A stretch of 64,000 bases of DNA from Armatimonadota bacterium (GCA_018268315.1 JAFDWU010000001.1:101280-165279); one strand, 5' to 3'; positions 23,229 through 27,132 are shown, counted from the stretch's first letter. The notes: generated from the letters alone by a model not told the origin. Program-made: numbers and translations.

Positions 23229-23867
23229 TTACTTAGCAGCTTTGCGCTTGCGGATCAGAGCAACAACGCCCAGACCGAGAGCAGCCATGGAAGCGGGCTC
23301 CGGAACTGCGGTGTCGCCACCGAGATAGAGAGCGACCGACTGGCCGAGGGTGCTTCGCGAGCCGAAGAAGTCCTGCTGAGCGAAGCGGTTGTTGACGCCT
23401 CCTACCATGCCCCACTGCGGCGGGAAGCCGAGGTCCGGTACGACCGCAAGCCAACCATCGCCGTTCCAGCCGACCGGCGTGATGAAGTCATAGTACTCAT
23501 ACACCGGGAAGCCATTGGCAGTCTCAAAGAAAGATTCATTGTTCGTGCCGTTGAAATGCTGGCTGTTGACAAGACCGCCGACCGCACCAGCATTATCAGC
23601 ATAGAAGCTGAGCGTGAAGCCAGTAATCTGGCCCTGCTGCGGCGGATTGAAGTACTCACCGAGCCATGCTACGGTATCGATGGTACCGACCGCATTGAAG
23701 CTTGCGTATACCGTCGCAAAGTTGCCGAAGCTATTTGTGTCGTTCTGCGATGAGTAAGCGTTGCCGTCATGCGCAGTGTCGTTGAAATACAGAGATGTAT
23801 TGTTTAATGCGCTTGCGCTACCTGCAAGAACAGCAATAGCCGCAAGAATTGCCATAGATTTATTCAT
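23229..23867 (-). CDS. PEP-CTERM-type secreted protein, tandem paralog 1
   Basis: A 212-residue exported protein. It has an N-terminal signal peptide (MNKSMAILAAIAVLAGSASA), a beta-rich middle with SQNDTNSFGNFATVY, WLGEYFNPPQQGQITGF and LVNSQHFNG, and the tail VPEPASMAALGLG plus a hydrophobic stretch and RKRKAAK. The tail matches PEP-CTERM sorting signals handled by exosortase/archaeosortase-type enzymes. No exosortase is in this window. The ATG at 23867 follows GAGG and begins the same MNKSM as its paralogs; an upstream start would add a non-signal extension. Function unknown. Confidence 0.85.
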   Translation of the reverse strand: MNKSMAILAAIAVLAGSASALNNTSLYFNDTAHDGNAYSSQNDTNSFGNFATVYASFNAVGTIDTVAWLGEYFNPPQQGQITGFTLSFYADNAGAVGGLVNSQHFNGTNNESFFETANGFPVYEYYDFITPVGWNGDGWLAVVPDLGFPPQWGMVGGVNNRFAQQDFFGSRSTLGQSVALYLGGDTAVPEPASMAALGLGVVALIRKRKAAK

Positions 23868-24009
23868 TTTCTTGAGTTTCCTCCTCGATGCCAGAGAACC
23901 TGAGTTCTCCAATTGGAGGACAAGAGCCTAGTTCTCATCTCCTCCAAATTGTTTGAAAGCATGGGCTTTCTAAAACCTTTCTTAATTCTCCAATGTCTGA
24001 TAGACATCA
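23868..24009 (-). promoter_or_regulatory. Structured 5' leader of paralog 1
   Basis: On the coding strand, from far to near: an ATTAAGAAAGGTTTTAGA block (23987-23970 region), helix GAAAGC-CCAT-GCTTTC (23970-23955), a long helix TTGGAGGA/TCCTCCAA (23948-23912 region), helix GAGAAC-TCAG-GTTCTC (23909-23894), then GAGGAGG and the start. The same order recurs before paralogs 2 and 3. Confidence 0.6.
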
Positions 24010-24039
24010 GGGGCGCCAAGACTTCCGTCTCGCCGCCCC
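24010..24039 (-). terminator. GC-rich hairpin after paralog 2
   Basis: GGGGCGGCGAGAC pairs with GTCTTGGCGCCCC with small interruptions. It occupies the same position as the hairpins at 24831 and 25659. No T-run on the coding strand. Confidence 0.45.
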
Positions 24040-24065
24040 CAATATAGTATTTCAAGCGTTAGAGC

Positions 24066-24695
24066 TTACTTAGCAGCTTTGCGCTTGCGGATCAGAGCAA
24101 CAACGCCCAGACCGAGAGCGGCCATGGAAGCGGGCTCCGGAACTGCGGTGTCGCCACTGAGAGCCATCGACACAGATGTGCCGAGAACGCTTCGGGAACC
24201 GAAGAAGTCCTGCTGAGCAAAGCGGCTATCCTGACCGGCAGTCCAGCCCCACTGAGGCGGGAAGCCGAGGTCAGCTACGATCGAGAGCCAACCGTCGCCA
24301 TTGACGGCAACGCCGGAAATATCCGTACTGTAGTCGTAGACGTCAAAGCCGCCCCAGTTATAGGCCCAGAACTCGTTGCAAGTACCATTGAAGTGCTGGC
24401 TGCTAACAAGGCCACCGGGATTTCCGCCAGCGTCGCTGTAGAAATTCAACGTAAAGCCACCGAGAGCGCCCTGCTGAGCCGGGTTGAAGTATTCGCCAAG
24501 CCACTCAACGTGGGTGACGGTACCGACTGCATTGAAGCTACCGTAAACGGTTGCGTAGTTGCCGTAGGTGTTGGTGTCGTTCTGCGAAGCGTAAGCGGAG
24601 CCGCTACCATCGCCATAGTTAATGTAGAGAATACTCGCGGAAGCGCTACCGGCAAGAGCGGCAGCAGCAATCACGAGTGCCATAGATTTATTCAT
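24066..24695 (-). CDS. PEP-CTERM-type secreted protein, tandem paralog 2
   Basis: A 209-residue paralog of the previous gene with the same plan: signal peptide MNKSMALVIAAAALAGSASA, YASQNDTNTYGNYATVYGSF, WLGEYFNPAQQG, FNGTCNEFWAYNWGGF, DLGFPPQWG, QDFFGSRS, and a VPEPASMAALGLG tail ending RKRKAAK. Unlike paralogs 1, 3 and 4 it has a cysteine in the middle region. The last 90 coding bases are almost identical to paralog 1, suggesting recent duplication or gene conversion. The start is well set by TAGGAGG upstream. Confidence 0.85.
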   Translation of the reverse strand: MNKSMALVIAAAALAGSASASILYINYGDGSGSAYASQNDTNTYGNYATVYGSFNAVGTVTHVEWLGEYFNPAQQGALGGFTLNFYSDAGGNPGGLVSSQHFNGTCNEFWAYNWGGFDVYDYSTDISGVAVNGDGWLSIVADLGFPPQWGWTAGQDSRFAQQDFFGSRSVLGTSVSMALSGDTAVPEPASMAALGLGVVALIRKRKAAK

Positions 24696-24830
24696 TTTTT
24701 ACGATTCCTCCTAGATTCAAAGAGAACTTGCGTTCTCCTAATGAAAGGCCATTGAGCCAAGACTCAAGCCTTCCAAATTGTTTGATGGCGATACGCCATC
24801 TAAAGTCTTTCTAATTCCCCTGGTTCTATG
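24696..24830 (-). promoter_or_regulatory. Structured 5' leader of paralog 2
   Basis: Coding-strand order: ATTAGAAAGACTTTAGA block, helix GATGGCG-TAT-CGCCATC (24800-24784), a helix with inner TTGAG/CTCAA pairing (about 24776-24744), helix GAGAAC-GCAA-GTTCTC with a GNRA loop (24737-24722), then TTGAATCTAGGAGG. Arm changes relative to leaders 1 and 3 keep the pairing. Confidence 0.6.
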
Positions 24831-24877
24831 GCCCGAGGGCGCCGAGATTTCCATCTTGTCGCCCCCGGGCTCTTTTT
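24831..24877. terminator. Long GC-rich hairpin between paralogs 3 and 2
   Basis: Plus strand GCCCGAGGGCG...CGCCCCCGGGC with inner GAGATTTCCATCTTG pairing, followed at once by TCTTTTT. The T-run lies on the plus strand, opposite to the genes, so it would terminate plus-strand RNA best. It may act in both directions. Confidence 0.55.
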
Positions 24878-24890
24878 CGAAGCGGTTGGC

Positions 24891-25523
24891 TTACTTAGCA
24901 GCCTTGCGCTTGCGGATCAGAGCAGCAACGCCTAGACCGAGAGCAGCCATGGAAGCGGGCTCTGGAACAGCGGTGTCGCCGTTCAACTGAAGAGCAATCG
25001 ACTGGCCCAGCTGGCTTACGCTGCCAAAGAAGTCCTGGTAGCCAAGGCGATTGTTAACTCCACCAGCAATGCCCCACTGCGGGGGAAAGCCGAGGTCGGC
25101 AACAATCGAGACCCAGCCATCACCATTCCAGGAAACCGGGGTGATCGCCTGATCATACAGGTACGAATCAAAGCCGCCGTAGTTGCCATAGAAAGCTTCG
25201 CTTGAATTGCCATTGAAGTGCTGGGAGCTAACAAGGCTGCCAACGGATCCAGCATTATCGCCGTAGAAATTGAGGGTAAAGCCGGTGATCTGACCTTGCT
25301 GAGCCGGATTGAAGTACTCACCTACCCACAGAGCTTCGTTGATCGTACCGACGGCGTTGAAGGAAGCGTACACTATCGCATAGGTGCCATAGGTGTTCGT
25401 GTCGTTCTGCGAAGCATAGGCATTGCCGCTGCCATCGATGTTGTTGAAGTAGAGAACACTGCTTGCAAGTGCGCTGCTCGAGAGCACAGCTGCAAATGCA
25501 ATGATTGCCATAGATTTATTCAT
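24891..25523 (-). CDS. PEP-CTERM-type secreted protein, tandem paralog 3
   Basis: A 210-residue paralog: signal peptide MNKSMAIIAFAAVLSSSALA, YASQNDTNTYGTYAIVYASF, WVGEYFNPAQQGQITGF, LVSSQHFNGNSSEAFYGNYG, DLGFPPQWG, YQDFFGSVSQLGQS, tail VPEPASMAALGLGVAALIRK. The tail form VAALIRK is shared with paralog 4, while paralogs 1 and 2 share VVALIRK, suggesting two pairs. TAGGAGG lies upstream of the ATG. The mature protein is probably an exported, membrane- or matrix-sorted protein; no enzymatic motif is visible. Confidence 0.85.
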   Translation of the reverse strand: MNKSMAIIAFAAVLSSSALASSVLYFNNIDGSGNAYASQNDTNTYGTYAIVYASFNAVGTINEALWVGEYFNPAQQGQITGFTLNFYGDNAGSVGSLVSSQHFNGNSSEAFYGNYGGFDSYLYDQAITPVSWNGDGWVSIVADLGFPPQWGIAGGVNNRLGYQDFFGSVSQLGQSIALQLNGDTAVPEPASMAALGLGVAALIRKRKAAK

Positions 25524-25658
25524 TTATTTCGAGTTTCCTCCTAGATTCAAAGAGAACTTTCGTTCTCCCATTGGAAGCCTGCTAAGCCAAGACTCAAGTC
25601 TTCCAAAATTGTTGAAGGCATTGCCTTCTAAATTCTTTCTAATCCCCCTGGTCTATGA
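25524..25658 (-). promoter_or_regulatory. Structured 5' leader of paralog 3
   Basis: Coding-strand order: ATTAGAAAGAATTTAGA block, helix GAAGGC-AAT-GCCTTC (25628-25614), helix TTGGAAG/CTTCCAA (about 25606-25569), helix GAGAAC-GAAA-GTTCTC with a GNRA loop (25567-25552), then TTGAATCTAGGAGG. Confidence 0.6.
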
Positions 25659-25704
25659 CCCGGGGGCGCCAAGATGTACATCTTGTCGCCCCCGGGCTCT
25701 TTTT
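25659..25704. terminator. Very long GC-rich hairpin between paralogs 4 and 3
   Basis: CCCGGGGGCG and CGCCCCCGGG arms, with CAAGATG/CATCTTG continuing the stem to a two-base TA centre; one mismatch. CTCTTTTT follows on the plus strand. Same arrangement as 24831-24877. Confidence 0.6.
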
Positions 25705-25717
25705 CGAAGCGTTTGGC

Positions 25718-26350
25718 TTACTTAGCAGCCTTGCGCTTGCGGATCAGAGCAGCAACGCCCAGACCAAGAGCAGCCATGGAAGCCGGCTCTGGAACAGTCG
25801 GATCGCCGTTGAGGATCAGAGCAACCGACGTGCCGAGTTGGCTTCGCGAACCGAAGAAGTCCTGGTAAGCGAGTCGATTGTTCAGGCCAGATGGGAGACC
25901 CCACTGCGGCGGGAAGCCGAGATCCGGAACGATCGCAAGCCAGCCGTCGCCGTTCCAAGCAACCGGGTTGACGAACTGGTCATACAGGAAGACCGGGAAG
26001 CCGCCAGCGGTCGTGAAGAACGACTCGCTGGAATTACCGGCAAAGTGCTGGTGGCTAACAAGGCCACCGACGGTGCCAGCGTTGTCAGCGTAGAAATCCA
26101 GCGTAAAACCAGTGATCTGGCCCTGCTGCGGCGGGTTGAAATACTCGCCGAGCCAGGAAGCCTCGTTGATGGTTCCAACAGCATTGAAGCTGATGTAAAC
26201 GGTAGCAAAGTTGCCATTGCCACCGGTGGTGTCGTTCTGGGACGAATAGGCATTGCCCGTCTGGTCCCAATCGTTGAAGTAAAGATTGCTAGCAGCAGCA
26301 TTACCTGCAAGAACAGCAGCAGCAGCCAACATAACCATAGACTTATTCAT
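25718..26350 (-). CDS. PEP-CTERM-type secreted protein, tandem paralog 4
   Basis: A 210-residue paralog: signal peptide MNKSMVMLAAAAVLAGNAAA, SSQNDTTGGNGNFATVYISF, WLGEYFNPPQQGQITGF, HQHFAGNSSESFFTTAGGF, DLGFPPQWG, YQDFFGSRSQLGTS, tail VPEPASMAALGLGVAALIRK and RKAAK. A single change gives GDPTVPEP where the others have GDTAVPEP. AAGGAGG precedes the ATG. Its leader is shorter than those of paralogs 1-3, with only the start-proximal helix clearly kept. Confidence 0.85.
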   Translation of the reverse strand: MNKSMVMLAAAAVLAGNAAASNLYFNDWDQTGNAYSSQNDTTGGNGNFATVYISFNAVGTINEASWLGEYFNPPQQGQITGFTLDFYADNAGTVGGLVSHQHFAGNSSESFFTTAGGFPVFLYDQFVNPVAWNGDGWLAIVPDLGFPPQWGLPSGLNNRLAYQDFFGSRSQLGTSVALILNGDPTVPEPASMAALGLGVAALIRKRKAAK

Positions 26351-26445
26351 TTGTGAGTTTCCTCCTTAGATTCAAGCGGGAACTAAGTTCCCCATAATGG
26401 GATTCTTTGAAGACTTCCCCCAAAGAACCCCAAATCGATGAAACG
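26351..26445 (-). promoter_or_regulatory. Shorter, partly conserved leader of paralog 4
   Basis: Helix GGGAAC-TTA-GTTCCC (26392-26378) replaces GAGAAC/GTTCTC by a matched A-T to G-C change. It is preceded by an imperfect TTCTTTG...CAAAGAA stem (26427-26403) and followed by TTGAATCTAAGGAGG. The GC-rich hairpin is absent. Confidence 0.5.
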
Positions 26446-27108
26446 TTATGCCCTCTTTGCGGCGCGTCGCTTCCGAGCAAGAGCAGCCACACCCAGTCCA
26501 AGGACTGTCATGGAAGCAGGCTCAGGAACAGCGCGGTCGCCATAGATCTTCACGTTAACCGAGTTACCGAGCTGATTCGTGGAGCCGAAGAAGGTTTGGT
26601 AACCCAACGGTCCAGTATTCACGCCCGAAGCAAGTCCCCACTGCGGCGGAAAAGCAAGATCCGCAACGATGGATACCCATCCAGCACCGCTAATGGCCAC
26701 GCCGGCAACGTTTTGATCATAACCGTAGACCGGGAAGCCCAACGGCGAATTGCCCAACGAGGTCTCGCTGGCATTGCCATTGAAGTGCTGAGTGGAAAGA
26801 AGACTGCCAACCGAACCCGCGTTGTCCGAGTAGAAGTTCAGAGTGAACCCAGTGATGTTGCCATGCACCGGATTGTTGAAGAACATGCCTACCCAGCTAA
26901 CTTCGTTGATCGTAACGGGCCCCCCAACGTTGAAGCCGGCGAACGTGGTGGCATAGTTGCCATATCCCCCACCGGTTGTATCGTTTTGAGAAGCAAACGC
27001 TGTATCACCGCCATCCCAAGCATTGCTGTAAAGAAGAGCGGCAGAAGCACTGGCACCAAGCACAGAGGCAAGAGCCATTGTTGAAATTAAAATAAAGTTT
27101 CTCTTCAC
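26446..27108 (-). CDS. PEP-CTERM-type secreted protein, diverged paralog 5
   Basis: A 220-residue, more diverged member. It begins at GTG (MKRNFILISTMALASVLGAS when read as Met) after AGGAGG and TACAAT. It keeps FASQNDTTGGGYGNYAT, WVGMFFNNPVHGNITGF, LSTQHFNG, FPPQWG, YQTFFGSTNQLGNS and a VPEPASMTVLGLG tail, but ends RKRRAAKRA. The GTG at 27108 is preferred to a start at 27150, which would precede the ribosome binding site. It may be the founder or a conserved outlier of the array. Confidence 0.82.
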   Translation of the reverse strand: MKRNFILISTMALASVLGASASAALLYSNAWDGGDTAFASQNDTTGGGYGNYATTFAGFNVGGPVTINEVSWVGMFFNNPVHGNITGFTLNFYSDNAGSVGSLLSTQHFNGNASETSLGNSPLGFPVYGYDQNVAGVAISGAGWVSIVADLAFPPQWGLASGVNTGPLGYQTFFGSTNQLGNSVNVKIYGDRAVPEPASMTVLGLGVAALARKRRAAKRA

Positions 27109-27132
27109 GAGATATTGATCCTCCTGGCTCCT

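Follow-up and report, generated by a model that had tools for sequence, protein, structure and literature searches.

The window, a 64,000-nt stretch of DNA from an Armatimonadota bacterium (GCA_018268315.1, JAFDWU010000001.1:101280-165279), carries a cluster of five paralogous genes for PEP-CTERM proteins, all on the minus strand and separated by gaps of 95 to 198 nt (Table 1). A sixth paralog is unlinked to these, on contig 5 of this 2.8 Mb genome. Five of the six members of this protein family in the genome have a leader in common, four in the cluster (copies 1 to 4, numbered as their genes) and one upstream of the sixth paralog (c5). At four-fold degenerate sites the genes of copies 1 to 3 are 0.58 to 0.64 alike, and the gene of c5 is only 0.44 to 0.51 alike to those of copies 1 to 4. 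Over their final 88 coding bases (23232-23319, 24069-24156, 24894-24981 and 25721-25808) paralogs 1 to 4 are 86 to 99% identical, compared with about 70% over the whole genes, a difference which suggests that the PEP-CTERM tail has undergone gene conversion. The genome as a whole contains 55 PEP-CTERM matches and one exosortase, and the sixth paralog is embedded in a tandem array of other-family PEP-CTERM genes (contig 5, L035 5543-9558). So many PEP-CTERM genes, with tails of this form, may point to the Fimbriimonadales within the Armatimonadota.

Table 1. Genes, leaders and hairpins of the PEP-CTERM cluster, in window coordinates, with the unlinked fifth leader copy
Feature	Position	Strand	Remarks
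Paralog 1, PEP-CTERM protein, 212 aa	23229..23867	-	
Paralog 2, PEP-CTERM protein, 209 aa	24066..24695	-	
Paralog 3, PEP-CTERM protein, 210 aa	24891..25523	-	
Paralog 4, PEP-CTERM protein, 210 aa	25718..26350	-	
Paralog 5, PEP-CTERM protein	26446..27114	-	Upstream region without hairpin leader
Leader of paralog 1	23868..23986	-	Block, helices 2-4, ribosome site; fold z -2.45
A/U-rich block, copy 1	23969..23986	-	ATTAAGAAAGGTTTTAGA
Helix 2, copy 1	23955..23970	-	GAAAGC/GCTTTC
Helix 3, copy 1	23913..23947	-	TTGGAGGA/TCCTCCAA
Helix 4, copy 1	23894..23909	-	GAGAAC/GTTCTC
Leader of paralog 2	24696..24815	-	Fold z -3.99
A/U-rich block, copy 2	24799-24815	-	
Helix 2, copy 2	24784..24800	-	GATGGC/GCCATC
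Helix 3, copy 2	24742..24776	-	TTGGAAGGC/GGCCTTTCA, one G-U pair
Helix 4, copy 2	24722..24737	-	GCAA loop
Leader of paralog 3	25524..25643	-	Fold z -2.72
A/U-rich block, copy 3	25627-25643	-	
Helix 2, copy 3	25614..25628	-	GAAGGC/GCCTTC
Helix 3, copy 3	25571..25606	-	TTGGAAG/CTTCCAA
Helix 4, copy 3	25552..25567	-	GAAA loop
Leader of paralog 4	26351..26445	-	Helices 3 and 4 only; fold z -3.13; held-out model match
Helix 3, copy 4	26398..26432	-	GGGGTTCTTTG/CAAAGAATCCC, stem of 11+ bp
Helix 4, copy 4	26378..26392	-	GGGAAC/GTTCCC
Fifth copy (c5), upstream of sixth paralog	contig 5, 53645-53744		Helices 2, 3 and 4
Hairpin 3′ of paralog 1 stop codon	23177..23206	-	Cluster end
Hairpin 3′ of paralog 2 stop codon	24009..24040	-	Without sense-strand U-run
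Hairpin 3′ of paralog 3 stop codon	24835..24866	-	
Hairpin 3′ of paralog 4 stop codon	25662..25693	-	

The intergenic regions run from the stop codon through a 3′ hairpin and an A/U-rich block to helices 2, 3 and 4 and the ribosome site. Free-energy folding gave three hairpins in each of copies 1 to 3 (z of -2.5, -4.0 and -2.7) and two in copy 4 (z of -3.1), whose leader begins immediately after the stop codon of paralog 5; the region upstream of paralog 5 gave no hairpin structure in the same fold (z of +0.7). The last hairpin ends about 10 nt 5′ of a strong ribosome-binding site, and the distance from helix 4 to that site is short and fixed in all five copies. The loop of helix 4 reads TCAG, GCAA, GAAA, TTA or GAAT across the copies, and the best-kept unpaired parts include the stretch UGAAUCU...GGAGGA of the ribosome-site region. 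The leader sequences that the original prediction had quoted were all found on the minus strand at the expected places. The arms of helix 2 are present as it gave them (Table 1) and do change together, with three covarying pairs, and helix 4 is paired as GAGAAC/GTTCTC in copies 1 to 3 and as GGGAAC/GTTCCC before paralog 4. Two corrections concern helix 3: in copy 2 it contains a G-U pair and is still paired, and in copy 4 it had been overlooked.

The complete 2.8 Mb genome was searched with a covariance model trained on copies 1 to 3 only. Beyond its own sequences the model found the leaders of c5 (E of 6.7e-5) and of paralog 4 (E of 0.05, or 0.0011 when the window was searched), both at the correct place and on the correct strand, upstream of genes for proteins of the same family, and it gave no further match in the genome at E up to 10. 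A plain DNA search found c5 only at an E of 0.1. Pairing holds in 93% of cells across the five copies, and 8 of the 21 pairs have changed on both sides, in 11 cells (shuffle mean 3.0); three of these pairs fall in helix 2, four in helix 3 and one in helix 4. The covariation score was 0.39 versus 0.19, and the observed values were reached by none of 500 shuffles, a count that is not a probability because the copies are paralogs sharing descent, and that comes from an alignment fitted by the model and so biased towards structure. Sliding the partner by one to three columns in the five copies lowers the paired fraction to 41 to 56%. Copies 1 to 3, for which a MAFFT alignment is free of model fit, gave weaker support when taken alone (7 of 500 shuffles). 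Within these three copies the stems are 0.74 to 0.86 alike and the unpaired parts and loops 0.58 to 0.77. Conservation of the stems thus exceeds that of near-neutral sites, as represented by the four-fold degenerate positions, and the unpaired parts are about as alike as such sites, the ribosome-site region excepted. Because the two sides of the hairpins mutate together, the RNA shape is real: compensatory change maintains the helices, and the leader accompanies its gene family. Judged from these sequence comparisons, the mRNA leader is genuine, structured and restricted to its lineage, and it probably adds a new case to the 5′ stem-loop leaders. The argument from compensatory change to a functional RNA is supported for a covarying leader, which passed a real test with the held-out copies, and not for the riboswitch-like class that had been attached to it.

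Searches of databases and related genomes define how narrowly this leader is distributed. It resembles the riboswitch and leader families of Rfam in being a structured region of the 5′ UTR, but no family matched at gathering score and none relevant at E up to 1, where the one match lay in coding sequence of the opposite strand and was an unrelated chance hit. Model R1 showed the leader to be absent from the 84 other genomes of the family (85 including this one), and the five-copy model R2 yielded no credible homologue across the phylum's 290 other genomes (291 in total); the one further match, a weak one in genome G089 (E of 0.006), is antisense to a 437-aa frame that contains it and was taken as chance. 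For want of homologues in related genomes, the unlinked copy c5 served as the substitute in testing covariation. Close relatives of the protein were likewise absent from the other genomes of the family, of the order and of the genome collection searched. Outside this genome the sole protein relatives, at 40% identity, come from one MAG of the Bryobacterales and one of the Sphingomonadaceae (L038 and L039), and these two distant relatives gave no leader match. Our literature search found neither a structured RNA leader for PEP-CTERM genes nor a paper linking PEP-CTERM with untranslated regions. The hint of a new riboswitch-like class in the original prediction was not supported, given few conserved unpaired bases outside the ribosome-site region, no alternative fold or terminator found, and a distribution of one family in one genome. 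The unpaired core is not highly conserved, and no terminator, conserved burial of the ribosome site or switching fold was found; on present evidence the leader is not a riboswitch.

The leaders of ompA, papA and aprE, which are genes of exported or surface proteins, have a 5′ UTR in which one or more stem-loops precede a strong ribosome site. The leader described here is like these stabilisers in its 5′ stem-loops, its strong ribosome site and its association with surface-protein genes, and differs from them in consisting of three ordered hairpins that covary among paralogs; the sequence relation was compared via Rfam only. By fold and covariation together, a stable stem-loop before the ribosome site is maintained by selection, as expected of a 5′ stabiliser. 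Bacterial mRNAs are stabilised by 5′ hairpins (reviewed in PMC3997798), and in the cip-cel operon a transcript with a half-life of 5.3 min reached 45.3 min through a 5′ stem-loop, and both ends of the cut mRNAs were protected by stem-loops between the genes (PMC10311766). We infer that the mature mRNA starts with this leader, and we propose, with the chances about evenly balanced, that the hairpins guard this 5′ end and so stabilise or prime the mRNAs of these surface proteins. The genes of the tandem cluster would be read as a single transcript, and the A/U-rich single-stranded linker would be cut between the upstream 3′ hairpin and helix 2, with RNase E/G and RNase J as candidate enzymes, so that each cut message would carry a guarding hairpin at its 5′ and 3′ ends. 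For the unlinked copy, c5, a promoter just 5′ of helix 2 would yield the same 5′ end directly. The hairpins would then slow decay that depends on the 5′ end and keep the ribosome site usable, and for that reason the surface proteins could be produced at a high or individually set level.

The surroundings of the leaders are consistent with this proposal. A strong hairpin lies 3′ of each of genes 1 to 4, and the sense-strand U-run is missing after genes 2 to 4. Matched changes occur in three pairs of these 3′ hairpins, with a covariation score that was reached by 28 of 500 shuffles. Stem-loops flank the linker on both sides, with predicted fold energies well below -15 kcal/mol, and scans for the classic forms found neither a sigma-70-like promoter nor a sense-strand terminator in the tandem linkers. 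Upstream of c5, a promoter-like TTGGTT-17 nt-TATACT ends 13 nt 5′ of helix 2, a site without counterpart in the tandem linkers. The genome encodes both RNase E/G and RNase J. The cip-cel operon of Ruminiclostridium cellulolyticum, a case of selective RNA processing and stabilisation, also has stem-loops flanking its intergenic linker; here, in contrast, all the genes are paralogs, the 5′ side carries three hairpins in a conserved array, and co-transcription and cutting are postulated. As a separate observation, a plus-strand T-run, CTCTTTTT, adjoins the hairpins 3′ of paralogs 3 and 4 (24835-24876 and 25662-25703), so these hairpins look like terminators of antisense rather than of sense transcription.

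Hairpins close to the ribosome site may also be more widespread among PEP-CTERM genes of the order. PEP-CTERM genes and other genes were both screened for a compact perfect hairpin that lies 10 to 45 nt 5′ of the start codon and scores at least 15. The first set comprised 84 unique PEP-CTERM genes, the leader-bearing protein family being left out, and 18 of these had such a hairpin, compared with 14 of 212 other genes (shuffle expectations of about 4 and about 16, respectively). A fresh set of 37 PEP-CTERM genes gave 4 where 1.5 were expected, which is in the same direction but not significant alone. The combined sets stand at 22/121 versus 14/212, with a p of 0.001 for a threshold that was picked after the first set had been seen. 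A -10-like site lies just 5′ of the hairpin in 16 of 29 cases, against a background of 28%. The excess before PEP-CTERM ribosome sites in the order is modest and incompletely replicated, and we regard it as a lead rather than a result. Folding energy of the whole leader differed only weakly between PEP-CTERM and other genes, and was dropped as a marker of the former.

Taken together, the five-copy covariation, the held-out matches and the greater likeness of stems than of loops count in favor of a guarded 5′ end, as do the linkers without classic promoter or terminator, the 3′ hairpins, the promoter-like site of c5, the RNase genes, and the hairpin excess in the order, often after a -10-like site. 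Counting against it are the failure of that excess to reach significance in the fresh set, the lack of such a leader at paralog 5 and at most PEP-CTERM genes, and the presence of three ordered hairpins, which exceed the needs of a simple 5′ stabiliser. The leader might instead act chiefly on the start of translation, with helices 3 and 4 keeping open the stretch ahead of the ribosome site or forming a standby platform and any effect on decay being secondary. The fixed spacing of helix 4 and the conservation of the unpaired ribosome-site stretch fit such a role, for which structured leaders with standby sites, such as that of tisB (PMC7708055), provide a precedent, but the ribosome site is only partly free (0.25 to 0.60 unpaired) in the predicted ensembles, the weak pairing that covers it varies by copy, and helix 2, far upstream, is left without an obvious role. 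We consider this explanation unlikely. The same low standing applies to a regulated cis-element that would control the paralogs jointly through a bound protein, ligand or small RNA. It would account for the identical order of elements before five paralogs at two loci and for a conserved order of three helices that matches nothing in Rfam, but few unpaired bases are invariant in the five copies and the hairpin loops vary, the sense strand has no terminator after helices 2 to 4, burial of the ribosome site is not conserved, and paralog 5 is without a leader. Less probable again is a new, lineage-specific class of sensing RNA, in which the three-hairpin array would bind a protein, small RNA or other surface-sorting signal and so set the level of each paralog. 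Least credible, and in our judgment very improbable, is that the inverted repeats work as DNA, as parts of an operator or promoter, or are relics of recent tandem duplication: duplication is how tandem paralogs arise, the block ATTAGAAAGA sits at the position of a possible -10 region and the C-terminal coding ends appear homogenised by gene conversion, but the arm sequences vary while pairing persists, contrary to what a fixed protein site would show, G-U pairs are present on the sense strand, and c5, on another contig and old by its four-fold sites, is nevertheless paired.

Several more specific devices were considered and rejected. A transcription attenuator is not compatible with leaders that have no intrinsic terminator on the sense strand. 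A switch that sequesters the ribosome site could be drawn for copy 1, where a TCCTCC arm could pair with that site, but copies 2 to 4 and c5 are without the arm. A 24-codon ATG reading frame in copy 1 (23868-23940), which overlaps the gene start (ATGA), is lost in the other copies. A sigma-54 box of the form TGGY-N6-8-TTGC is absent, and matches to GG-N10-GC fall within the hairpins. Earlier work on PEP-CTERM control, in Proteobacteria, concerns sigma-54 promoters, with a conserved upstream element that is confined to that group (PMC1569441). Like the Sigma-54/PrsR boxes of the proteobacterial genes, the leader is conserved upstream of PEP-CTERM genes; unlike them it has no -24(GG)/-12(GC) element, its conserved part being an RNA structure that adjoins the ribosome site. 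Should the leaders set the levels of the paralogs post-transcriptionally, they would offer a simple, testable way for nearly identical surface proteins to be expressed unequally, in a phylum that has almost no genetics, and the leader is compact enough to be tested as a part in a laboratory host. Another tandem trio of PEP-CTERM paralogs, on contig 6 (L037 7500-9800), has an identical start region, TTGGAGGATTACAGGCTAGATG, with a short hairpin just 5′ of it whose arms vary between the copies.
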